Shown here: one piece after another, positions 14,827-26,421 of the stretch
How positions within the stretch are numbered: the first letter of the stretch is position 1
How the letters are laid out: each line of letters opens with the position of its first letter
Source of the DNA: Flavobacterium sp. HSC-32F16
GTDB taxonomy: Bacteria > Bacteroidota > Bacteroidia > Flavobacteriales > Flavobacteriaceae
Reading direction: 5' to 3'
Assembly: GCF_024171645.1 (NCBI RefSeq)
Contig: NZ_JALKAC010000002.1
Span: forward strand, 682,001-746,000
Length of the DNA: 64,000 nucleotides
Position numbers and translations under genes: made by a program
The notes under the pieces: model-generated
Database searches by the model: none
Told to the model about the DNA's origin: nothing
Seen by the model: the letters and a program-made list of their open reading frames with translations, nothing else

Positions 14827-15489
14827 TTAAAAAGCAGTCAAAGCTTTTAAATCAGCGATTGTATGAGTTGGGTTTTCTGCTTTAAACACAAAGCTTCCGG
14901 CAACCAAAACATCAGCTCCGGCTTCTACTAATTGTTTTGCATTTTTACTGGTTACACCGCCGTCAATTTCAATAAGAGTCAATGCTTTTTTGCGAGTAAT
15001 TAAATCTTTTAGTTTTTTAACTTTTGTATACGTATTTTCAATGAAAGATTGTCCGCCAAAACCAGGATTCACACTCATGATGCAAACCAAGTCAATGTCG
15101 TTTATAACATCTTCTAATAAGTCAATATTGGTATGCGGATTAACAGCAACTCCAGCTTTCATTCCTTCGGCTTTAATTGCTTGAAGTGTTCTGTGTAAAT
15201 GTGTACAAGCTTCGTAATGTACCGTTAAATTATTGGCTCCTAAATCGGCAAAAGTTTTAATGTAACGATCCGGATCGATAATCATTAAATGTACATCAAT
15301 TGTCTTTTTTGCATGTTTTGAAATGGCTTCTAAAACCGGCATTCCAAAAGAAATATTCGGAACAAAAACTCCATCCATAATGTCAATATGAAACCAATCG
15401 GCCTGACTGTTGTTAATCATTTCGATATCACGCTGTAAATTCGCAAAATCGGCAGCAAGAACTGAAGGAGCAATAAGAGTATTTTTCAT
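14827..15489 (-). CDS. rpe: Ribulose-phosphate 3-epimerase
   Basis: A 220-residue TIM-barrel enzyme of the pentose-phosphate pathway, interconverting ribulose-5-phosphate and xylulose-5-phosphate. Visible motifs: IAPSVLAADFANL at the N-terminus (catalytic Ser), HIDIMDGVFVPN near residue 35 (metal His, catalytic Asp), VHLMI, MSVNPGFGGQSF near residue 143, and EIDGGVTSKN with the second Asp. The frame stays open 68 codons further upstream, but that stretch is translated repeat DNA; the family-conserved start is the ATG at 15489. A -7 box lies 26 bp upstream. Confidence 0.96.
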   Translation of the reverse strand: MKNTLIAPSVLAADFANLQRDIEMINNSQADWFHIDIMDGVFVPNISFGMPVLEAISKHAKKTIDVHLMIIDPDRYIKTFADLGANNLTVHYEACTHLHRTLQAIKAEGMKAGVAVNPHTNIDLLEDVINDIDLVCIMSVNPGFGGQSFIENTYTKVKKLKDLITRKKALTLIEIDGGVTSKNAKQLVEAGADVLVAGSFVFKAENPTHTIADLKALTAF

Positions 15490-15515
15490 TGTGTAGTTGT
15501 GTGTTGTTTTTTTTA

Positions 15516-15523
15516 CAAAGATA
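15516..15523 (-). promoter_or_regulatory. -7 box (TATCTTTG) of rpe
   Basis: Exact TAnnTTTG match. The leader that follows is A/C-rich and ends AACTACACA just before the ATG, as in purH. Confidence 0.45.
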
Positions 15524-15547
15524 AATTTTTTATGCTGTGCATTGTAA

Positions 15548-15636
15548 TTTAACCGCAAAGCACGCAAAGATTTTTGGCTTGTAAGATTCTGTAAAAAACG
15601 CAAAGTTCGCAAAGCTTTGTGTGCTTTTCGGTTAAA
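15548..15636. repeat. 89-bp inverted-repeat element in the rpe/rpoD gap
   Basis: The 313-bp gap 15490-15802 holds the rpe promoter, this element, the rpoD terminator and a TTTCAAGTT repeat. The element is bounded by 22-bp arms, TTTAACCGCAAAGCACGCAAAG (15548-15569) and its near-perfect inverse (15615-15636), matching at 20 of 22 positions. The interior holds a further ACGCAAAGTTCGCAAAG. It looks like a small non-autonomous or REP-type dispersed repeat. Confidence 0.6.
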
Positions 15637-15658
15637 TTTAAAAAAAGATAAAAATAAA

Positions 15659-15683
15659 AAACTCCGGTAATCAGCCGGAGTTT
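15659..15683 (-). terminator. Terminator of rpoD
   Basis: Perfect stem AAACTCCGG / CCGGAGTTT with a 7-base loop, followed on the minus strand by a T-rich tract. Confidence 0.8.
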
Positions 15684-15737
15684 CAATCATCAATCAAAAA
15701 ACGAACAGTCAATCAAACTGTTGTTTGCGTTACAAAG

Positions 15738-15802: not shown

Positions 15803-16666
15803 TTATCCTAAATAGGTTTTAAGAATTTTACTTCTGGAAGTGTGTTTTAATCTACGGATTGCTTTTTCTTTAATCTGACGAACACGCTCACGAGTTAAGT
15901 CGAAAGTTTCTCCAATTTCTTCTAAAGTCATTGGGTGCTGATCGCCAAGACCAAAATACAAACGAACAACATCTGCCTCTCTTGGAGTTAATGTTTCTAA
16001 CGAACGCTCGATTTCAGTACGTAATGATTCGTGAATTAATTCTCTGTCAGGGTTTGGAGATTCTCCAGAACGTAATACGTCATAAAGGTTAGAATCTTCA
16101 CCTTCAACAAGAGGTGCATCCATCGATAAGTGACGACCAGAGTTTTTCATAGACTCTTTTACGTCATTTACGGTCATGTCAAGTTCTTTTGCAATTTCTT
16201 CAGCAGAAGGCGGACGCTCGTTAGACTGCTCTAATAACGCATACATTTTGTTGATTTTATTGATAGAACCAATTTTGTTTAGTGGTAAACGAACAATACG
16301 TGATTGTTCTGCAAGAGCCTGAAGGATCGATTGACGAATCCACCATACGGCGTAAGAGATGAATTTGAAACCACGAGTTTCATCAAAACGCTGAGCTGCT
16401 TTAATAAGACCTAAGTTTCCTTCATTAATTAAATCAGGAAGAGTTAATCCTTGATTTTGATATTGTTTAGCAACCGATACAACGAAACGCAGGTTGGCTT
16501 TTGTTAATTTTTCTAATGCTCTTTGATCACCCGCCTTTATTCTTTGTGCTAATTCTACCTCTTCATCAGCGGTAATTAGGTCAACTTTTCCGATTTCTTG
16601 TAGATATTTATCTAACGATGCAGTTTCACGATTGGTTACCTGCTTGGTGATTTTAAGTTGTCTCAT
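15803..16666 (-). CDS. rpoD: Primary sigma-70 factor RpoD
   Basis: A 287-residue vegetative sigma factor of the short Bacteroidota type, lacking the long N-terminal region 1.1 and the non-conserved insert. Region 1.2 is [20 protein letters not shown]. Region 2 has [20 protein letters not shown] and the -10 recognition segment [15 protein letters not shown]. Region 3 follows ([15 protein letters not shown]). Region 4 ends with [20 protein letters not shown]. It directs RNA polymerase to TAnnTTTG-type promoters. Unusually for this phylum, a Shine-Dalgarno sequence sits at a correct distance from the ATG. Confidence 0.97.
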
Positions 16667-16750: not shown

Positions 16751-18217
16751 TTAAAATTTATATGAAAGCCCGGATTGAAGCGATAAACTATAAGGTTTAG
16801 CGTCGTTGTCATCTTTAAATGTATTGAAATAATATTTGAATAAAGGGTTTATTTCTAATTGTAGTTTTTTTGTCAATTCATAACTAAAACCTAACCCAAT
16901 ATTTGAGGCAATATTAACTTTTGAAATATTTCTGGAAGATCCAATATTTTGTGATAGAACTTCATCAGATCTCATTTCTAGAGTATTAGTTTTTAAAAGC
17001 ATTGTGCTTAAACCTCCAAAAGCCTCAATATTAAATCTGCTTTTGTCTTTTTTTACAGCATAATTAAATTCGATTGGAAGTTCGTAATAAGAAAGTGTCT
17101 GTGTCAGCTCTACATCAGTTGAATTAGCAAACGTATTATTAATTATAGCTGGCGAAAGATTCGTTTTTAATTCAATATTACTGTAGGATGGTATTAATTC
17201 ATTTTGATCTAATAGAGTAGATGTTTTTAAGCTTAGATGAGAAAAACCTACTCTAAATCCGGTTTTTCTATACATAATTTTAATATAAACACCATAAAAA
17301 GCGGTTACAGGTTTGCTTGTAGGCTGTTTAGATAAACTAGGATCAATTAGAGATTTATTGTTTAGTGAACTAAAAACAGCGGGACCATAATAAATATGTA
17401 CTCTGCGTTCTGGCGGATTATTAACGACTATTTTTTCAGGAGTGTTTTCCTTAATTTTAGGTACCCTTTTCTTTTTGACCGGAACGCTGTCAATTACGGG
17501 TATGCTGTCTTTCTTTTCTTCTGTTATAACAGGAATCGTTTCAGTAATTTTTGGTTCAACAGTTTCTGGTATTACAGGAACGACGTTTGTTTTAGGTAAT
17601 TCTGTTTCGGTTTTCTGCTTTGTAATTTTTGAAGGACTCTTTTTTCCTTTGAATGGTTTTGGTTTTGTTTTTGATGATACAGTAGTACCATAATATTTTT
17701 TCTTAACCGGTAACGATTTACTCGCTTTATTCGTTTTAGTTGGATTTATTTTAGGAGTATCTTTAATGTGTATTTTTTCCTTTTTTATTGTGATTTTATA
17801 TTTTTTGGTAACCTCATATTCTTCATATTCATTTGTTGATGAAACGAGTTTGCTGGACTGTTTAATTAGTTTAACATTTTTGCTTTTTCTAATTAATACG
17901 GTATCATTATTATTGGGTTCTTTTTTTTCTGTCTTTTTTTTCGGACCGGTACTTTGTTGTACGGTTTGATTTTGAAGTAAATGAATAGGCGTTTTTTGAG
18001 TGCCGCTTATTTCGTTTTGGTTTTTGTTGTTTAAAACTGCAACAGTTGACAAAAGCCCCATTAATAGTATACTCGGGATAAGCCAGATTAAAAATCTTCG
18101 ACGACGTTTTTTATTTAAATCCTCTTCAATTCTAGACCATACAAAATCTCCTGGAGCTTGATCCAGGTGTAATAATTTGTTTTTAATTGCTTTTCCTATT
18201 TCGGTTTTATTTTCCAT
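16751..18217 (-). CDS. Anti-sigma-like / outer-membrane beta-barrel protein
   Basis: A 488-residue protein with four zones. Residues 1-41 are cytoplasmic and basic at the end (PGDFVWSRIEEDLNKKRRRR), like the anti-sigma-like heads seen in many Bacteroidota proteins paired with ECF sigma factors. Residues 42-62 form one membrane helix. Residues about 63-270 are a Lys/Pro/Thr/Val-rich low-complexity linker. Residues about 272-488 look like an outer-membrane beta-barrel: alternating strands, repeated aromatic girdle residues, final Phe. The gene overlaps the ECF sigma gene by 11 bp. I infer a protein that senses at the outer membrane and holds the sigma factor at the inner one. Confidence 0.75.
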   Translation of the reverse strand: MENKTEIGKAIKNKLLHLDQAPGDFVWSRIEEDLNKKRRRRFLIWLIPSILLMGLLSTVAVLNNKNQNEISGTQKTPIHLLQNQTVQQSTGPKKKTEKKEPNNNDTVLIRKSKNVKLIKQSSKLVSSTNEYEEYEVTKKYKITIKKEKIHIKDTPKINPTKTNKASKSLPVKKKYYGTTVSSKTKPKPFKGKKSPSKITKQKTETELPKTNVVPVIPETVEPKITETIPVITEEKKDSIPVIDSVPVKKKRVPKIKENTPEKIVVNNPPERRVHIYYGPAVFSSLNNKSLIDPSLSKQPTSKPVTAFYGVYIKIMYRKTGFRVGFSHLSLKTSTLLDQNELIPSYSNIELKTNLSPAIINNTFANSTDVELTQTLSYYELPIEFNYAVKKDKSRFNIEAFGGLSTMLLKTNTLEMRSDEVLSQNIGSSRNISKVNIASNIGLGFSYELTKKLQLEINPLFKYYFNTFKDDNDAKPYSLSLQSGLSYKF

Positions 18218-18755
18218 TTTTCGTCTGATTGTAAAATGTACTTTTAGATTTTATTTTTTCTTTCAAAAGATGCTTTGCTCTATGCAGATTAGATTTTGAG
18301 GTGCTTTCGCTTATTCCTAAAAGAGAGGCAATCTCCTGATGCGAATAATCGTCTAATTCATATAAATTAAAAACGAGTCGATATTGATTGGGTAAATCCT
18401 GAATAAAGGTTAGAATTTCATCGAGAGGAAGATCAATTTCTTTATCGATTATTATTTCTTCCTGCTGATGATCGTCTTTAATTGGGGTTAAGAAATAGGA
18501 TTTTTTATATCTGTTTATAGCTTTGTTAATTGTGATTCGCTTTATCCATCCTTCAAAACTTCCTTTTCCTTTGTAATTTTTAATATTTGTAAAGATTTCA
18601 ATAAAGGCATCATGCAGATTGTCTTCGGCTTCATCCCGATTTTGACAATATTTTAGACATAGCACAAACAAAACATTCTTATACACTTGGTATAATTGTT
18701 CTTGCGCCTGCCTATTCTGTTTAATGCAGCCTTTTATGAGTTGATCTAAATTCAA
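18207..18755 (-). CDS. ECF-type sigma-70 factor
   Basis: A 182-residue extracytoplasmic-function sigma factor. Region 2 is DEAEDNLHDAFIEIFTNI with GSFEGWIKRITINKAINRYK (about residues 45-100); region 4 holds the helix-turn-helix SHQEIASLLGISESTSKSNL near residue 145. The start is TTG at 18755, four bases after the stop of the upstream lipoprotein gene; no ATG fits, and MNLDQLIKGC is the usual beginning for this family. Its 3' end overlaps the membrane-spanning anti-sigma-like gene. The three genes form an operon, suggesting a cell-surface signalling unit. Target genes unknown. Confidence 0.92.
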   Translation of the reverse strand: MNLDQLIKGCIKQNRQAQEQLYQVYKNVLFVLCLKYCQNRDEAEDNLHDAFIEIFTNIKNYKGKGSFEGWIKRITINKAINRYKKSYFLTPIKDDHQQEEIIIDKEIDLPLDEILTFIQDLPNQYRLVFNLYELDDYSHQEIASLLGISESTSKSNLHRAKHLLKEKIKSKSTFYNQTKNGK

Positions 18756-18758
18756 ATC

Positions 18759-19190
18759 TTATTTTTCAAGTTTTGTAATTTCTATTTTGTTGCTGCACAA
18801 TAAGCCGGCTTTGTTATAGGCTTGAATGGCACCATTTGTAAAATTTTTACCAATATAAAATATAGCCTGATGGGTTCCCTGACCTTTTTTTAATGTTATA
18901 TCGCCGCTAACTACTTCCCATTTAATGTCAGAAGACTTTTGGTTACCCCTGTAAGAATAGGTATAAGTACTATTTGTTTGAACAAAAAGACTTCCGTTTA
19001 CTACGCAGCAAGTTCCGGAAATTATATCTTCACAACCGCCTGTGTACCAGTATTTATCTGGAGTATCATGTTCTGAAATTATATCTGTTTCTTCCTTATT
19101 GTCAACGTTTTCAATTTCTTTACTCTCAGATTCATTACAGCAGGAAAATATAAAGAGTAGTATAATGGATATAGGAATTACTTTTTTCAT
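18759..19190 (-). CDS. Lipoprotein with PKD/Ig-like domain, first gene of ECF operon
   Basis: A 143-residue lipoprotein; the signal peptide ends at LFIFSC-C near residue 17. After an acidic linker, the mature part (about residues 45-143) carries a beta-sandwich pattern like PKD-type domains: SYRGNQKSSDIKWEVVSGDI, GQGTHQAIFYIGKNFTNGAI, and CSNKIEI at the end. Four cysteines lie in the domain (GGCED, GTCCV, LLCSN) and may form disulfides. It is 3 bp upstream of the ECF sigma gene, so it is likely part of the same sensing system, but no specific role can be assigned. Confidence 0.75.
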   Translation of the reverse strand: MKKVIPISIILLFIFSCCNESESKEIENVDNKEETDIISEHDTPDKYWYTGGCEDIISGTCCVVNGSLFVQTNSTYTYSYRGNQKSSDIKWEVVSGDITLKKGQGTHQAIFYIGKNFTNGAIQAYNKAGLLCSNKIEITKLEK

Positions 19191-19253
19191 GATTAAATAA
19201 TTATCGTTATAATTGATAGTATTAAAAAATAAAAAAGGTTGCGTAATAAAATA

Positions 19254-19296
19254 AAAAAAAACTCTTCGTTCAGTTTTCTTGAAGGAAGAGTTTTTT
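19254..19296 (-). terminator. Terminator of the TonB-receptor operon
   Basis: Stem AACTCTTC / GAAGAGTT with a T run on the minus strand, between the end of that operon and the ECF operon. Confidence 0.7.
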
Positions 19297-19319: not shown

Positions 19320-21116
19320 TTAATTGATTTGTGAATCTTTCACCTCAATAATTTCTTTTGTATAAACGGGTTTTCCAGAAGAAGAAAATCCTTCAACAAT
19401 AATTTCAAATGGACCATTTACGTCAGATGCCGCGAATGAAATGTTTTCTTCTGTTGTTTTTAATTTAAAATCCGGAAGCCATAATAATTGATGTCTGTAA
19501 TCTGGAATTCTGGCGTTTTTTGTTTTATCGCTGTAATCTGGCTGATAGTAATTCTTTTTACCCAAAGGTCTTAAAATCTCGGGTTTAATTATAAAGCTTC
19601 CATCTAATTTACTAACGTAATCAAAGTTTTTGGTAGTAAATGAAATCAAACCATTAAACAATTTTGTTCCATAAAAATAACCTCCATTAACAATGTTAAT
19701 TTTGTAAACGTTACTCATTTTGTATTCAAAAAGCTCATTGATATCTTGTACTATTAAACCGTCTACAAGTACCAATGCAGGAGATGATAATTCGTAATTC
19801 ACATCATAATCATGTAAGTGCAGTTCATACTTGCCTTTTGTCTGCGTGAAATACATTTCTTTTACAATCTCGATAATGGTTTCTTTTAATGTAGGGAATC
19901 GGTTAAAATCATCTAAAACATATTGTTTAGATATTGGATCATAGAACTTTTTCGAATCTTTTACCAATGCAATACTATCCTTTGTGATATTATAATACGC
20001 ATTTTCAATTTGACTTGCGATTGCTCTTTCTTTCAAAATTTCATTAAAATTTGAACTCAATTCAAAAGTATTAAACTTTAGAGATTCAAGATTTAATGAT
20101 TTTGGTTTGTCTATTTCAATGCCGTAATTCTCTTTGTCAGAATCAATAAGTTGTATAATAATATTTGAATTTGGGGAAGGTTTGTCTAAAATGAACGAGA
20201 ATTGTCCGTTTTGATCCGTTTTGGAAATTTTAAATTCAAAATTCTTTTCCGGAATTGAGATTGCAATATTTTTATTGACAAGGCTGTTTCCTGCCGTTTT
20301 TGCAATTATTTTACCAGATATTATTTCGCCGCGCAATTCAGGGATTGCGAAATTTTCAGTTTTAATGCTGTTGCTTTGGTTTGGGTTTGAGGCATTATAT
20401 TCTGTAAAGTTTAATTTGCTTTTAGAAACCAGAGCATCAATTTTTCTAACTGAAACAGTATAGTTTCCTTTCGAAAAATCTTCAGATTCTGTTTTTATCT
20501 TCAGGTCAATAAGTTCCCTGTTTGCAAATATTTTTTTTGCTAATGATAATGCTAATCCAGAAGTTGAAACGCTTGATGAAGCTGTTATATCTTGAGGAAT
20601 TGATGATTTTTCAGGTTTAGGATTTTTATTGGTTTGATAAGGATTTACAATATAAATATCAATATTGAAATAATTTGAATCTGATTTGTTCAGCATCCAG
20701 CTAGTGTAGCCAACAAGCTTGTAATTTCCGGTTTCTAATGTTGTTGGAATAAAGAAATCCCCATTTGCAACACCTTTTTCCAGGAATAATTTATGTTTAA
20801 AAACACTTTTTTTGCTGTTGTCAACCAACTCAACATAGGCGATTTTGCTATATGGCGAAACGGTATTATTTAATTTGTTAAGACAAAATAAATTATAACG
20901 AAGTGTTTCGCCAGTCAAATAAGAATTTGAGTTTGGCGTAATGAAAATAGATTCATTAATTTTTGTGTCAATCGCCATTAACTCAACTTCTGAGCTTTTG
21001 CTTTGAGCTTCACTATTTTGCTGGAAAAACAGTGCTGTTATTACGAGTAAAGAAAGTTTTAGTCTATCCAAAATAATGGTTTTATGTTTGATGAAAATGA
21101 TGTGCAGTCTCCGCAT
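19320..21116 (-). CDS. Secreted MG2/plug-like partner protein of TonB receptor
   Basis: A 598-residue exported protein. An N-terminal macroglobulin-like (MG2) stretch is suggested by NSNSYLTGETLRYNLFCLNK and LETGNYKLVGYTSWML (about residues 60-150). A carboxypeptidase-regulatory-like domain lies near residues 255-335. A TonB-receptor plug-like segment appears near residue 455 (ALVLVDGLIVQDINELFEYK, then YFYGTKLFNGLISFTTK), without a barrel. The ATG at 21116 overlaps the upstream gene by 58 bp; a TTG at 21071 would give a cleaner signal peptide (LDRLKLSLLVITALFF). It ends the receptor operon and is probably an envelope partner of the receptor. Confidence 0.7.
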   Translation of the reverse strand: MRRLHIIFIKHKTIILDRLKLSLLVITALFFQQNSEAQSKSSEVELMAIDTKINESIFITPNSNSYLTGETLRYNLFCLNKLNNTVSPYSKIAYVELVDNSKKSVFKHKLFLEKGVANGDFFIPTTLETGNYKLVGYTSWMLNKSDSNYFNIDIYIVNPYQTNKNPKPEKSSIPQDITASSSVSTSGLALSLAKKIFANRELIDLKIKTESEDFSKGNYTVSVRKIDALVSKSKLNFTEYNASNPNQSNSIKTENFAIPELRGEIISGKIIAKTAGNSLVNKNIAISIPEKNFEFKISKTDQNGQFSFILDKPSPNSNIIIQLIDSDKENYGIEIDKPKSLNLESLKFNTFELSSNFNEILKERAIASQIENAYYNITKDSIALVKDSKKFYDPISKQYVLDDFNRFPTLKETIIEIVKEMYFTQTKGKYELHLHDYDVNYELSSPALVLVDGLIVQDINELFEYKMSNVYKINIVNGGYFYGTKLFNGLISFTTKNFDYVSKLDGSFIIKPEILRPLGKKNYYQPDYSDKTKNARIPDYRHQLLWLPDFKLKTTEENISFAASDVNGPFEIIVEGFSSSGKPVYTKEIIEVKDSQIN

Positions 21117-22333
21117 TGAATATTGTAAATTTCTATTAAAAGAGGGGTTGGTATTTTTGAAGGATATGGCACAATACCAAGAGAATTGTAACCTGAAAAA
21201 TAAACACTATTGCCTAGGCTGATATTGCTGTAGACAACAGGCCCGCCACATCCGCCGTTAACTTCAAAACAATACGGAAAAATATGTTCTTTTTCTAGTG
21301 CAGGTGTTGAAAGTGCCAGAGGGCAGTCGTAAGGGTAAGCTGGTAGTTTTTCGTTTGGAAATACATCCGAAAAATTAAAGAAAATCCTTTTTTCGCTGTA
21401 AGCAGAAACATCAAAAAAGCCAATTACTTTTTCTGAACTATCAGTATCCGATTTAATGTTTCCTGCCAAAAAACCAGGCTGATTTTGTGATAAAAGACTT
21501 TCTGAACCCGACATTTTACTTAAGGTTTGGTAAAAAGTAAAAGCACTGAGATTTTGAACAAACTGTTTAACAAGAATAGAATATCTATTGGCGATACTAT
21601 AGTCTGTACTAGCGATAAAACGCACTGGGAAATCAACACGATCTTCAGATAAATCATTTGTGCTGGTTAAAATGATGGCATCTGATTTTTTATTGGAATA
21701 ACAGGTTTTGGCTTCTTTCGTTCTCATTTGAATAACAAGATCACCAGGAGCAAGACTGCTATTAGGACCACTATAGGGAACTGCAATAGCTTCATAAGGG
21801 GACCATTTTGGAGCTACTACTTTGTAAGTTTCATCATATTCGTAACGGTAATATTTTGAGCTGTTTGAAGGATCGTAACTTTTTGCTTTAATCTCAACAC
21901 CTAAAATTCCTTCCTTAGTTGTTACATTTTTGTATAGATCTTCGATATTGGTTTCTTTTGTTAGTTTTTCGGCAGTTGAACTATACGATTTACCATCTTT
22001 CGTTTTTACATGAAGCTGGTAAGTTCTGTCTGCAGAGGCTTTAAATTCTGCCTCAGAAAGGTAAATTCCGCTTTCTTCATCAAACCCATATACGGTTCCT
22101 AGATCATCTGTAATACTTATAGTTGCGCCATTTTCAAAAACAGGCCCTTCATCTTCAAATTTATAAGTTCTGGATAGTTTTATTTCCTGTTTTTTTAATT
22201 GGTTTGTAATTGTTGCCTCTATTACAATAGCATTTTCAAAACCATTTGTTGTATAATTATATGGTGTTGTGCAACTAGTAATTAGTGCAATTAATGCTAG
22301 TAGAAATATTTTATATGACAATTTTTTTTTCAT
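21059..22333 (-). CDS. DUF4249 family lipoprotein (copy 2)
   Basis: A 424-residue lipoprotein (lipobox LITSC near residue 21) of the DUF4249 family, found in Bacteroidota beside TonB-dependent receptors. A TTG two codons upstream is ignored in favour of the ATG. It is a close paralog of the DUF4249 gene 48 bp upstream. The block QNQPGFLAGNIKSDTDSSEK through SEKRIFFNF is identical in both, while the segment between PAYPYDCP and the C-terminus diverges. The conserved end IQCGDCTSF holds a CxxC. It is probably a surface partner of the receptor in this operon; ligand unknown. Confidence 0.85.
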   Translation of the reverse strand: MKKKLSYKIFLLALIALITSCTTPYNYTTNGFENAIVIEATITNQLKKQEIKLSRTYKFEDEGPVFENGATISITDDLGTVYGFDEESGIYLSEAEFKASADRTYQLHVKTKDGKSYSSTAEKLTKETNIEDLYKNVTTKEGILGVEIKAKSYDPSNSSKYYRYEYDETYKVVAPKWSPYEAIAVPYSGPNSSLAPGDLVIQMRTKEAKTCYSNKKSDAIILTSTNDLSEDRVDFPVRFIASTDYSIANRYSILVKQFVQNLSAFTFYQTLSKMSGSESLLSQNQPGFLAGNIKSDTDSSEKVIGFFDVSAYSEKRIFFNFSDVFPNEKLPAYPYDCPLALSTPALEKEHIFPYCFEVNGGCGGPVVYSNISLGNSVYFSGYNSLGIVPYPSKIPTPLLIEIYNIQCGDCTSFSSNIKPLFWID

Positions 22334-22387
22334 TAACAATTTTTGATCCTTATTGCTTAATTTTAATTATTAAAGAGTAAACTCAAT

Positions 22388-23650
22388 CTAGTCTACCCAA
22401 AATAAAGGTCTAATATTTGACGAAAATGAAGTACAGTCTCCGCATTCCGTATTGTATATTTCTACTGTAATTGTTCCGTCATTTGGGATAGTACCAAGGA
22501 AATTGTAACCACCATAATAAACGCTAATGCCCTGAGAAATTCGTGCATAAACGGTGTTTCCAAAACACGCAGGAATAGCATTGTCTGAAAAACAATATAA
22601 TAACTTATGCTCTTTTATTTGTGTAGACGTTGTTAGTGCCATTGGGCAATCGTACGGATAAGCTGGTGTTTTTTCAGTTGGAAATAAATCCGGAAAATTA
22701 AAGAAAATCCTTTTTTCGCTGTAAGCCGAAACATCAAAAAAGCCAATTACTTTTTCAGAACTGTCAGTATCTGATTTAATATTTCCTGCCAAAAAACCTG
22801 GTTGATTTTGTGACAAAAGACTTTCTGAGCCTGATATTTTACTTAACGTTTGATAAAAGGTATAAGCACTAAGATTTTGAACAAACTGCTTTACAAGAAT
22901 ACTGTATCTATTGGCAATAATATAATCTGTACTTGGAATAAAGCGCACCTGAAAATCTACACGGTCTTCGGATAAGTCATTCGTACTTGTTAAAATAATA
23001 GCATCTGATTTTTTAGTTGAATAACAAATTCTGGCTTCTTTTGTTCTGTTTTGAATAAAAAGATCACCTGGAGCCGGACCGCTGCTTTTAGGAATTGCTA
23101 TAGCTTCATATGGCGTCCATTTTGGAGCTATCACCTTGTAAGTTTCAGCATATTCGTATCGATAATATTTTGAACTGTTCGCAGGATCGTAACTTTTTGC
23201 TCTAATCTCTACACCTAGTACATTTTCTTTAGTTGTTACGTTCGCAGCGATATCTTCCAAACTGGTTTCAGTAGTTAGTTTTTCTACACTCGAACTATAC
23301 GATTTTCCATCTTTAGTTTTTATATGAAGCTGGTATGTTCTTCCAGGCAGAGCTTTAAATTCTGCTGCAGAAAAATAACTTCCGTTTTCTTCATCAAATC
23401 CATAAATAGCGCCCAGATCATCTGTTACGGTTACAACAGCACCGCTTTCAAATACTGGCCCTTCATCTTCAAATTTATAAGTTCGGGATAGTTTTATCTC
23501 CTGTTTTTTTAATTCATTTGTAATTGTTGCTTCAATTACAATTGCATTTTCAAAAGAGTTAGTCTTATAAGGATATGGAGTTGTACAGCTGGAAACAGCT
23601 GCAAACAATACGAGTAAAACTAATTTATATGTGGTGATTTCTTTTAACAT
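22388..23650 (-). CDS. DUF4249 family lipoprotein (copy 1)
   Basis: A 420-residue lipoprotein (lipobox AVSSC near residue 22), paralog of the next gene. N-terminal halves share FENAIVIEATITN.LKKQEI and LSRTYKFEDEGPVFE. Its C-terminal third differs, carrying ALTTSTQIKEHKLLYCFSDN where copy 2 has a different Cys/Gly-rich loop, and ends TECGDCTSFSSN. The start overlaps the stop of the TonB receptor by one base (TAATG), indicating translational coupling. It likely sits at the cell surface with the receptor. Confidence 0.85.
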   Translation of the reverse strand: MLKEITTYKLVLLVLFAAVSSCTTPYPYKTNSFENAIVIEATITNELKKQEIKLSRTYKFEDEGPVFESGAVVTVTDDLGAIYGFDEENGSYFSAAEFKALPGRTYQLHIKTKDGKSYSSSVEKLTTETSLEDIAANVTTKENVLGVEIRAKSYDPANSSKYYRYEYAETYKVIAPKWTPYEAIAIPKSSGPAPGDLFIQNRTKEARICYSTKKSDAIILTSTNDLSEDRVDFQVRFIPSTDYIIANRYSILVKQFVQNLSAYTFYQTLSKISGSESLLSQNQPGFLAGNIKSDTDSSEKVIGFFDVSAYSEKRIFFNFPDLFPTEKTPAYPYDCPMALTTSTQIKEHKLLYCFSDNAIPACFGNTVYARISQGISVYYGGYNFLGTIPNDGTITVEIYNTECGDCTSFSSNIRPLFWVD

Positions 23651-26421
23651 TAGAATTTAAAGTTATAGGTGATTGTTGGTACAGGAACACTAAAGATTGA
23701 TGTTTGGTACGCCTGAACTTTTCCTTCTTTTGTGACAAAAAATACAGAGTATGGATTATTTCTTCCTAAAACATTATAAATAGAAATATTCCAGAAACTG
23801 TGCGCTAATTTTTTTATTTTATGATTTCCTTCAATATTAAATCCGATGTCTAATCTGTAATAATCTGGAATTCTAAATTTATTTCGATCGCTGTAAAGCG
23901 TGTATTGAGCACCTCCATAATTATATTGGCCAATAGGATAGGTTATTGGACGACCTGTTTGGTAAATAAAATTAGTAGAAAAACTATAACGATGTGTAAG
24001 TTTATAATTTAATACGGTACTAAAATCATGTGGTTTGTCAAAATTTGTAGGGAAAAAATCTCCGTTGTTTACCTTTTCTTCATTATACTGACTGTCTAGT
24101 TTTATAAATGCTCTGGAATACGTATATCCGATCCATCCGTTTAATCTTCCTTCTGTTTTTTTAATTAAAAATTCTACACCGTACGATTTTCCTTCTCCTT
24201 GTAATAATTCAGTTTCTAGGTTTTCATTTAGCAATAAGTTGGCACCGACTTTATAATCTAAAATATTATTAGATTTTTTGTAATATCCTTCAATACTCAA
24301 TTCAAGGTTTTTATAGTCTGTTTTTTTAAACAATCCTAAAGAAAACTGCTGTCCGCTTTGAGGTTTCACATTTAAGTCAGATAATTTCCAGGTATCTGTT
24401 GGCGATTGTGTTGTGTTATTAGATAATAAATGGATGTACTGAAACGTTTTGTCGTAACCTGCTTTTATAGAAAAAGTTTCATCAAACAAATATCGAACAC
24501 CTATTCTAGGTTCAAAACCAGTATAAGTTTTAATAGTTTCATTACTGCCATACGTTTTTTCCTCAACAACAGTTGAAGGATTTAAAGGAACTCCTTCTTC
24601 ATAAATTTTTTGCGTTGATGGGCCCATTGCAGAATAAACAGAAAAACGCGCACCATAATCTAATAGTAATTTATCTGTGATTTTAAAATTATCCGAAAGA
24701 AAAGCGGCAGATTCTAACCCTTTTTCTTTTTGAATATGAGTTGCTAAAAGCAAAGAATTTGGATCTTTTGGGGTCAAATCACCAGGGTTTACATTGTATA
24801 ACTTAGTTGAAATTCCATAAATAAATTTATGTTTTTCATTAAAGTTATAATTGAACTTTAATACAGCTTGCGTCTCAGTAATTTTATATCCAAAATCAAA
24901 AGCATTTGAATTATTAGAATCATAATCAATGTTGAATTTGTATTCGCTGTTGGTAACGTTCAATTCTCCGTTATGTTTTTCATTAAATGCATGTTTCCAT
25001 TTTAAGGAAGCCATTCTGTTGCTGTATTTGTATAATGAGTCAGATGTAATACTGTACGCATCTTTACTATAATACACAGTTCCTTCTATAGAATTTTTTG
25101 CATTGATTTTGTGCGTGTATCTGGCAAACAAATCGTAAAAAGAAGCCTGGCTTTTTTTAAGTTTTTCGTTATCTAAAGTTTTTAAAATCCAATCAGAATA
25201 AGTAGCTCTTCCTCCAACTAATAAACTTGATTTTCCTTTTACAATTGGTGTTGAAAAAGTTAAGTTACTCGTTACAGGTCCAATTCCTCCTTCACCTGCA
25301 AATTTATCAACGTTACCGTTTTTTGAGGTTATGTCGAAAACAGAAGATAGTCTGCCTCCAAATTCAGGTGGAATTCCTCCTTTATAAATGTCAACTTTGT
25401 TTACAGTATAGGGATTAATAGCCGAGAAAAAACCAAAAAAGTGACTTGGATTGTAAATCGTACCGTTATCAAGAAGTATTAAGTTTTGATCTTCTTTTCC
25501 GCCTCGAACATTAAATCCTGCAGAGCCTTCTCCAGCTGTTTTTACTCCCGGAATCGTAAGCGCTACTTTTAAAATATCTCTTTCACCTAAAATTACAGGA
25601 ATATTTTTTATTCCTTCGGCTTCAATAGTGGTAACTCCTGTAATAGCAGTTCTAATATTTTGTGTTGCTTTGCTGTTTACCACAACTTCATCAAGTTGAT
25701 TTAGTTTTTCGGTAAGGAATAAATCTAATTTTCCATCACTGTAAACCATAATCTTTCGGGTAATATTTTGATAGATTATAGATTCAATGTCAATGATATT
25801 TACTTCTGTAGGAACTTTTAGAAAATAATAACCCTCAGCATTTGTTACCGTGCTGATAGAAGTATTTCTAATCTTAACATTTATATCTGCAAGAGGTTCG
25901 TTAGTTTTTATATCTTTTAAGTAACCGGATAAAGTGTATAAGCCATTATTTGATTCACTAGATTCTTTACCAACCAAAACAATATTAGTGTTCGCACCTT
26001 TTGATCCTGATTTTTTTACAGAATCAAACTGTCCAAAAAACACTGGATTTGCCGATTTTGAAGGTTTATTTACAATATCTGGTTTATTAGTTTCGTAATC
26101 AGGAAAACTATCATAAATAATACTGTTTTTAGTAAGTACTATTTTATTATTGTCAATAAAATAATTCAAATCAGTATCCTCTAATATCTTTGATACTATT
26201 TCAGAAATTGTTTTGTTAACGTAATTTCCAGATATCAATACATTATTTTCAAACCAGCCTTCCTGATAATAAATTTTGTATTTAGAATTAGCTTCAATTT
26301 TTTGTAAAGCTGCGGTTCTGCTGATATTACTAAACTCGATACTTATCGCTGAATTTTTGTCTTGTGAAAATGATAACTGACTAAAAATCAAGAAAATTAT
26401 AGTGGTAATTAATGACCTCAT
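23650..26421 (-). CDS. TonB-dependent outer-membrane receptor with STN domain
   Basis: A 923-residue outer-membrane receptor. After the signal peptide (about residues 1-19) comes an STN (secretin/TonB N-terminal) domain, about residues 25-115. A carboxypeptidase-regulatory-like domain (LSGYLKDIKTNEPLADINVK) lies near residues 163-240. The plug domain is around 245-370 (VPVILGERDILKVALTIPGV, with FNVRGGKEDQNLILLDNG). The barrel follows to the final Phe. It imports a large or chelated nutrient using TonB energy. The coupled DUF4249 genes and the plug-like protein suggest a four-component uptake complex. An STN domain often signals to an anti-sigma factor, but none of the FecR type is adjacent. 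Confidence 0.92.
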   Translation of the reverse strand: MRSLITTIIFLIFSQLSFSQDKNSAISIEFSNISRTAALQKIEANSKYKIYYQEGWFENNVLISGNYVNKTISEIVSKILEDTDLNYFIDNNKIVLTKNSIIYDSFPDYETNKPDIVNKPSKSANPVFFGQFDSVKKSGSKGANTNIVLVGKESSESNNGLYTLSGYLKDIKTNEPLADINVKIRNTSISTVTNAEGYYFLKVPTEVNIIDIESIIYQNITRKIMVYSDGKLDLFLTEKLNQLDEVVVNSKATQNIRTAITGVTTIEAEGIKNIPVILGERDILKVALTIPGVKTAGEGSAGFNVRGGKEDQNLILLDNGTIYNPSHFFGFFSAINPYTVNKVDIYKGGIPPEFGGRLSSVFDITSKNGNVDKFAGEGGIGPVTSNLTFSTPIVKGKSSLLVGGRATYSDWILKTLDNEKLKKSQASFYDLFARYTHKINAKNSIEGTVYYSKDAYSITSDSLYKYSNRMASLKWKHAFNEKHNGELNVTNSEYKFNIDYDSNNSNAFDFGYKITETQAVLKFNYNFNEKHKFIYGISTKLYNVNPGDLTPKDPNSLLLATHIQKEKGLESAAFLSDNFKITDKLLLDYGARFSVYSAMGPSTQKIYEEGVPLNPSTVVEEKTYGSNETIKTYTGFEPRIGVRYLFDETFSIKAGYDKTFQYIHLLSNNTTQSPTDTWKLSDLNVKPQSGQQFSLGLFKKTDYKNLELSIEGYYKKSNNILDYKVGANLLLNENLETELLQGEGKSYGVEFLIKKTEGRLNGWIGYTYSRAFIKLDSQYNEEKVNNGDFFPTNFDKPHDFSTVLNYKLTHRYSFSTNFIYQTGRPITYPIGQYNYGGAQYTLYSDRNKFRIPDYYRLDIGFNIEGNHKIKKLAHSFWNISIYNVLGRNNPYSVFFVTKEGKVQAYQTSIFSVPVPTITYNFKF

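Follow-up and report, generated by a model that had tools for sequence, protein, structure and literature searches.

A sigma factor operon of Flavobacterium encoding a predicted Dma/Reo-type dual-membrane anti-sigma protein, with a putative ECF-type promoter whose -35 part is shared by related operons

The DNA analysed here (the window) is a stretch of 64,000 nucleotides of Flavobacterium sp. HSC-32F16 (contig NZ_JALKAC010000002.1, positions 682,001 to 746,000; the coordinates below count from its first letter). It carries, on the minus strand, a packed operon for a 143-residue lipoprotein (18759-19190), an extracytoplasmic function (ECF) sigma factor of 182 residues with a TTG start (18207-18755) and a 488-residue protein (16751-18217). 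The latter is a member of the known Dma/Reo class of dual membrane-spanning anti-sigma factors of Bacteroides and Phocaeicola. The unit as a whole is probably an outer-membrane stress switch of this type, which controls its own operon and for which the lipoprotein is mainly an output. It carries the recently described class, in which a single chain signals from the outer membrane to the cytoplasm, beyond the gut Bacteroidales into a different branch of the phylum. With a promoter legible in the DNA and a few predicted targets, most of them lipoproteins, it becomes possible to test what Dma proteins sense and what they switch on. The packing proposed in an earlier note on this DNA, a 3-bp gap between the lipoprotein and sigma genes and an 11-bp overlap between the sigma and Dma genes, agrees exactly with the open reading frame (ORF) coordinates, and the 11-bp overlap is also present in nine other loci (L005-L010, L012, L017 and L038).

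Dma (dual membrane-spanning anti-sigma) proteins, represented by Dma1/Das1 and Dma2/Das2 of Bacteroides thetaiotaomicron, begin with an anti-sigma domain, continue through a transmembrane helix and a long disordered tether, end in a C-terminal barrel and are encoded beside an ECF21 sigma factor (Pardue et al. 2026, PMC13088901). In this class Dma represses its sigma factor, and its loss raises vesiculation. Reo of Phocaeicola vulgatus is described as extending from the cytoplasm to the surface; it is believed to respond to stress at the outer membrane, and three nigD genes are under its control (Evans 2022, PMC9308784; PMC13114119, 2026). Both share the anatomy and the model proposed for the window protein, and the earlier note's view that no such mechanism had been described has to be abandoned. 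Profile-profile comparison of ten proteins of the window group with 79 homologues from named genomes gave a probability of 99.1 (E 1.6e-17). The barrel alone, aligned across 118 columns in the C-terminal half, scored 71.4 (probability 96.5), compared to at most 28.9 for shuffled columns (n=40) and 18.2 for the reversed profile. The head (residues 1-65) scored 51.9 (probability 95.0, E 4e-8) against at most 18.8 in 40 column shuffles and 15.7 in reverse, a result to be read with the knowledge that the 79 homologues were chosen by length (380-480), by BLAST to L103 and by the presence of W..[LIV] where the head lies, which means that selection partly favoured the head motif. They were drawn from the best 80 of 280 related places found by scanning named genomes with ten Bacteroidales sequences (A4), a set that includes two Chryseobacterium and one bin labelled Paenibacillus. 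Among these best 80 are P. vulgatus ATCC 8482 (L111), B. fragilis (L145, L157), B. xylanisolvens (L137) and Chryseobacterium (L172, L186).

The sigma factor of the window matches Sigma70_r2 (1.9e-12) and Sigma70_r4_2 (9.1e-17) and is 35-39% identical to those of L111, L137 and L157, the value for P. vulgatus L111 being 39%. At L111 the order is nigD, sigma, anti-sigma, in agreement with the tags M0N98_03762/03761/03760 that follow one another in strain PvCL10 (PMC13114119, PMC9308784). Fusions of the two partners also occur. A sigma-Dma fusion, Dma3, has been reported (PMC13088901), and we found single genes with an N-terminal ECF sigma factor and a C-terminal Dma-type barrel: nine are listed, eight of them distinct (L068, L081, L083, L086, L088, L090, L093 and L094; 547-586 codons), all in family f11, the family of P. 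massiliensis, in which L103 is 100% identical to L107. These Dma3-like fusions support sigma and Dma as one working unit.

In profile comparison the window protein matches its relatives in Bacteroides and Phocaeicola. Dma of B. thetaiotaomicron itself was compared by description: like the window protein it has a head, one membrane helix, a disordered tether and a C-terminal barrel, with an ECF sigma gene adjacent. The gene arrangement differs. In the dma2 operon, genes of unknown function (DUF4943, DUF4858) lie on the side of dma2 away from das2, judging by its numbering, whereas in the window a lipoprotein gene comes first; a search for DUF4943 in the window's own genome gave no match. EcfO-Reo of B. 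fragilis and P. vulgatus resembles the window unit in that the anti-sigma factor is predicted to reach from the cytoplasm to the surface and a lipoprotein gene lies by the sigma gene; there this is nigD, and three nigD genes belong to the regulon. A recognition sequence for EcfO of B. fragilis has reportedly been published (Ndamukong 2013, as cited in PMC7366714). In L111, L137 and L157 nigD is divergent, whereas the window lipoprotein gene is co-directional within the operon and its product is not NigD by Pfam (no match up to E 1, compared to NigD_C matches of 1.1e-31 or better in the neighbours at those three loci). In surface signalling of the FecIR/FecA kind, an outer-membrane component acts through an inner-membrane anti-sigma factor on a cytoplasmic ECF sigma factor. 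Control of such a sigma factor from the outer membrane is common to both systems, but FecIR/FecA uses a receptor and a separate anti-sigma factor where the window has one chain, and Pfam searches up to E 1 found no FecR or TonB receptor domain in the three operon proteins.

The anatomy of the 488-residue protein was examined by structure prediction. AlphaFold2 gave no useful model from the single sequence (predicted local distance difference test score, pLDDT, 36.8), and NCBIfam returned no match for the protein. In the model obtained with a 46-row alignment (A2), residues 4-16 and 24-65 are helical, most of the linker is below pLDDT 50, and eight barrel strands lie between residues 270 and 487, with block mean pLDDT of 88-98 over 271-488. 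Residues 1-41 (18095..18217, minus) form the predicted cytoplasmic anti-sigma head, which is recognised by its profile match and by its conserved residues, P22, W27, I30 and L34 being invariant among 19 homologues. Residues 42-62 (18032..18094, minus) lie within the modelled helix 24-65, 71% of them being F, I, L, V, M, W or Y, and correspond to the inner-membrane helix; head and single helix are thus as previously supposed. The same is true of the C-terminal barrel (residues 266-488; 16754..17422, minus), whose eight strands were recovered by prediction. Invariant barrel residues among the 19 homologues include E379, P381, Y386, G402 and G426. The Pfam match (OMP_b-brl_2, residues 355-464, E 2.5e-5) falls under the curated cut-off, and two Pfam barrel families each match 23 of the 46 family members. 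Structural alignment of residues 266-488 gave Z 18.1 with NspA (155 residues), 16.9 with OprF (132 residues) and 16.7 with OmpA (166 residues), and both Foldseek and a second aligner group this region with NspA, OmpW, OprF and OmpA. The model, the homology of both ends and the sigma-Dma fusions together support the proposal that one chain runs from a barrel in the outer membrane to a sigma factor in the cytoplasm, with the head expected to bind the sigma factor and the barrel to insert into the outer membrane.

The region between helix and barrel had been described as a low-complexity linker of about 208 residues. It is indeed mostly disordered, with pLDDT below 50 across most of 71-238, but it is not uniform, because a predicted beta hairpin at residues 109-148 (17774..17893, minus; KLIKxSxKLV..NEYEEYEV.KKYK; block pLDDT 57-74) is conserved about as strongly as the head and its flanks less so: taken over the ten closest proteins, the average frequency of the most common residue is 0.71 for the hairpin, 0.72 for the head and 0.37 and 0.42 for the flanking linker. 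Regulated proteolysis is a usual route by which ECF anti-sigma factors are removed, and a long, mostly disordered, Lys-rich linker would be an easy protease target. The chain might therefore be a fuse rather than a mechanical link, its linker being cut on misfolding of the barrel by proteases of the periplasm or of the membrane; no protease gene was recognised among the window ORFs listed (genes elsewhere and cleavage sites were not sought), and we regard cleavage as a minority possibility.

A putative ECF-type promoter, CGCAACC-N16-ACTA, lies at 19217..19243 on the minus strand, its first base being 53 nt upstream of the ATG of the lipoprotein gene; it matches once in the window, compared to 0.13 matches expected. 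In the window group GCAACC is aligned in all 11 upstream regions and ACTA follows 16 nt later in ten, the exception being L220 with TCTT, whatever gene comes next. In most operons of the other groups this -35 part is combined with ATCT as -10 element. Within 200 nt, the strict form was found before 30 of 34 operons and GCAACC before 33, compared to 0.025 and 0.97 expected from dinucleotide shuffles of the 34 (one listed operon, L227/L006, was not located and loci with short upstream stretches were left out of this count). All nine window-group operons with a strict site carry ACTA and the 21 others ATCT. In a tree of the sigma factors of 35 operons with two outgroup rows, the ten ACTA rows (L006 included) group in a single clade, with support of 99/96 and recovery in 100% of 200 bootstrap trees, and ATCT occurs in two groups; shuffled -10 labels need 8.6 changes on average. 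A scan for sigma-70 promoters was at chance (13 found, 13.3 expected).

These data also bear on the idea that the motif belongs to another ECF sigma factor or to a general stress sigma factor, the neighbouring sigma factor controlling different genes. There are 29 PF08281 matches in the genome, and overlapping ECF regulons have been discussed for a flavobacterium (PMC9723704), whose ECF motif has a CGT -10 box. This explanation nevertheless seems improbable, given that the strict motif precedes 30 of 34 operons and that its -10 variant tracks the sigma clade and not the type of lipoprotein. The promoter and the predicted lipoprotein regulon are, as far as the excerpts examined allow us to say, not described for flavobacteria and are the new additions of this work.

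The lipoprotein, with a lipobox (IFSC) read by eye, further cysteines and a weak PKD_6 match, had been considered a possible surface ligand-binding part of the barrel. In 348 genomes of the genus, its own included, it was matched in 13: apart from its own genome (G000) and the sole clear homologue (G077), the remaining 11 match weakly, at E 1.1e-5 or worse, from the N-terminus. The PKD-like domain is doubtful, as its match (E 0.018, 15.8 bits) falls below the cut-off of 25 and its one close homologue (L005) has none up to E 0.1.

Partner genes were surveyed in loci with a Dma match of at least 400 residues. From 58 such loci, three duplicates of loci of this genome, eight without a complete adjacent sigma gene and six with short upstream stretches were left out, and the 41 retained (including the second unit of this genome) together with the window make 42. 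Signal peptides were called with a simple script or on inspection by eye. In 27 of the 41 loci a protein predicted to be exported ends no more than 110 nt before sigma; the upstream genes of 11 others, mostly cut by the edge, were initially not predicted as exported, and longer stretches revealed a signal peptide and lipobox, read by eye, in all 11. An exported gene thus precedes sigma in 39 of 42 loci (37 at a limit of 60 nt), the exceptions being L006, L007 and L056, whereas only 2 of 27 other PF08281 sigma loci of this genome have one within 60 nt.

The survey of neighbours that had been suggested found a regular slot, filled by more than one family. Near relatives have a lipoprotein with a weak Lcl_C match (L008, L009) or look-alikes (L010, L012, L017, L038), L011 has a papain-type lipoprotein, a second group carries another lipoprotein family (one member tested, without Pfam match), and the named loci have NigD (L111, L137, L157) or DUF4840 (L162 and, in Chryseobacterium, L172). 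Since the slot varies while sigma, barrel and promoter stay, and since the same promoter fronts lipoproteins elsewhere, the window lipoprotein is more likely an output of the system than its ligand-binding part. If it were a receptor, it would sit at the surface beside the barrel, bind a ligand through a PKD-like fold and gate the barrel, and the sigma output would be something else. Its place in the operon close to the sigma and barrel genes, the regular presence of an exported gene in that position and the cysteines conserved between the window lipoprotein and its clear homologue are compatible with such a role. Against it, in close relatives whose sigma and barrel are the same the lipoprotein is an unrelated one or is missing with the promoter kept, the PKD match is under the cut-off and the NigD lipoproteins of P. 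vulgatus are outputs of the regulon (PMC13114119); a receptor is accordingly rather unlikely, although the product may possibly also feed back on the barrel.

Further targets were sought with the promoter pattern. Its loose form gave 12 sites in the genome, compared to 5 for the reversed pattern. Eight of these are strict, and six of the eight are placed 43-60 nt upstream of the start of a lipoprotein (L245, L247, L248, L251, the window site L252 and L255). L247 (C1:1129434) is the only other strict ACTA promoter before a gene and is followed by two consecutive lipoprotein genes, which makes it the best candidate, as judged from the motif, for a second target of the window sigma factor. In 26 genomes, this one included, the CATCT form gave 29 sites against 5 for the control: 16 precede an exported protein (36-88 nt), seven have no ORF of 40 codons and six are of other kinds. 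Excluding the four sites of this genome leaves 25, of which 13 precede an exported protein, six are ORF-less and six are other.

In the stress switch that we favour, the cytoplasmic head of the 488-residue protein would hold the ECF sigma factor at rest, with one helix passing through the inner membrane, the Lys/Pro/Thr-rich linker spanning the periplasm and the eight-stranded barrel lodged in the outer membrane. Disturbance of the barrel or of the outer membrane would be passed along the chain and free the sigma factor, which would then transcribe its own operon, including the front lipoprotein gene, from CGCAACC-N16-ACTA, and presumably one other lipoprotein locus, L247. The lipoprotein would be mainly an output, in the position held by NigD in Phocaeicola.

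Several observations weigh against this interpretation. In the Bacteroidales loci, which share 8-mers around ATACTGCA, the operon has no strict site of the CGCAACC type. The close relatives L006 and L007 lack the lipoprotein, although promoter, sigma and Dma are present. In the window's own genome, one strict site (L246) is inside an antisense gene, another (L250) has no ORF, and the longest reading of the L245 lipoprotein ORF runs across the promoter site. Only two strict ACTA sites, those of the window and of L247, lie outside other genes, so that the regulon specific to this sigma factor may consist of two loci. Among the CATCT sites of relatives, 12 of 25 have no exported gene within 100 nt.

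CGCAACC-type promoters also occur in the intergenic region between recA and plsC in five genomes (L250, at C2:201087 of this genome; L257; L269/L275; L271; L277/L279). Four of these regions have two sites about 180 nt apart and L271 has the second kind alone. In an alignment of four, the first site precedes an ORF-less stretch of about 130 nt with a terminator-like hairpin at its end, and the second precedes a basic microprotein of 34 residues, whose last residues are ISEKIIHR or a close variant. At L223 a lipoprotein-sigma-Dma operon follows recA instead. Rfam matches, found in four of seven ORF-less promoter loci, were far below the gathering scores. A more general proposal, to which we give somewhat less than even credence, is that Dma-type sigma factors of this family run a surface-lipoprotein stress regulon from a two-part promoter, CGCAACC-N16-ACTA or -ATCT, joined in some species by a candidate small RNA and the conserved microprotein of the recA-plsC region. 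In this outer-membrane stress response the sigma factor would be held by the barrel itself, and the first gene of the operon would encode an exchangeable lipoprotein effector.

Downstream of the Dma gene the window carries rpoD, a primary-type sigma gene with four Sigma70 regions (15803-16666), and then an rpe-like gene (14827-15693). The names rpe, recA, plsC, trpS and fmt are assigned by sequence resemblance. An rpe-like gene was found in 27 of the 80 named loci, nearly always directly downstream of the Dma match, including the Phocaeicola-type loci L100, L103, L105 and L111; in the window and four relatives examined (L228-L231) it is one gene further, after rpoD, whereas at L111 it follows the Dma gene. 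The remaining 53 of the 80 have no rpe-like gene within the stretch examined, and this neighbourhood was therefore set aside as proof of orthology and kept as supporting only.

Upstream, a terminator-like inverted repeat with a T run, read by eye (19256..19296, minus), separates the operon from the next gene; it is absent from the list of the terminator scan, whose loop limit was 8. Beyond it, upstream of three other genes, is a TonB-dependent receptor gene (23650-26421), with two adjacent and similar lipoprotein-like genes downstream of it; the one tested (21062-22339) matches DUF4249, and the region (21059-26421) looks like an ordinary uptake-type cluster.

Dma matches at E 1e-6 are present in 71 of 150 genomes of the genus, and matches occur in at least 82 of 392 genomes across the phylum, with at most three candidates scored per genome; the loci described here are among the matches listed and come from related species, so that they are not independent. 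A second full unit lies in the same genome (C11:44.7-46.6 kb). Another gene of this genome (L036, C4:47635-48270), which adjoins an ECF sigma gene and a SusC-plug-type gene, combines a head and membrane helix of this type with a C-terminus that is TonB-plug-like by eye. Similar heads are found elsewhere on frames of about 250, 330 and 750-1100 residues.

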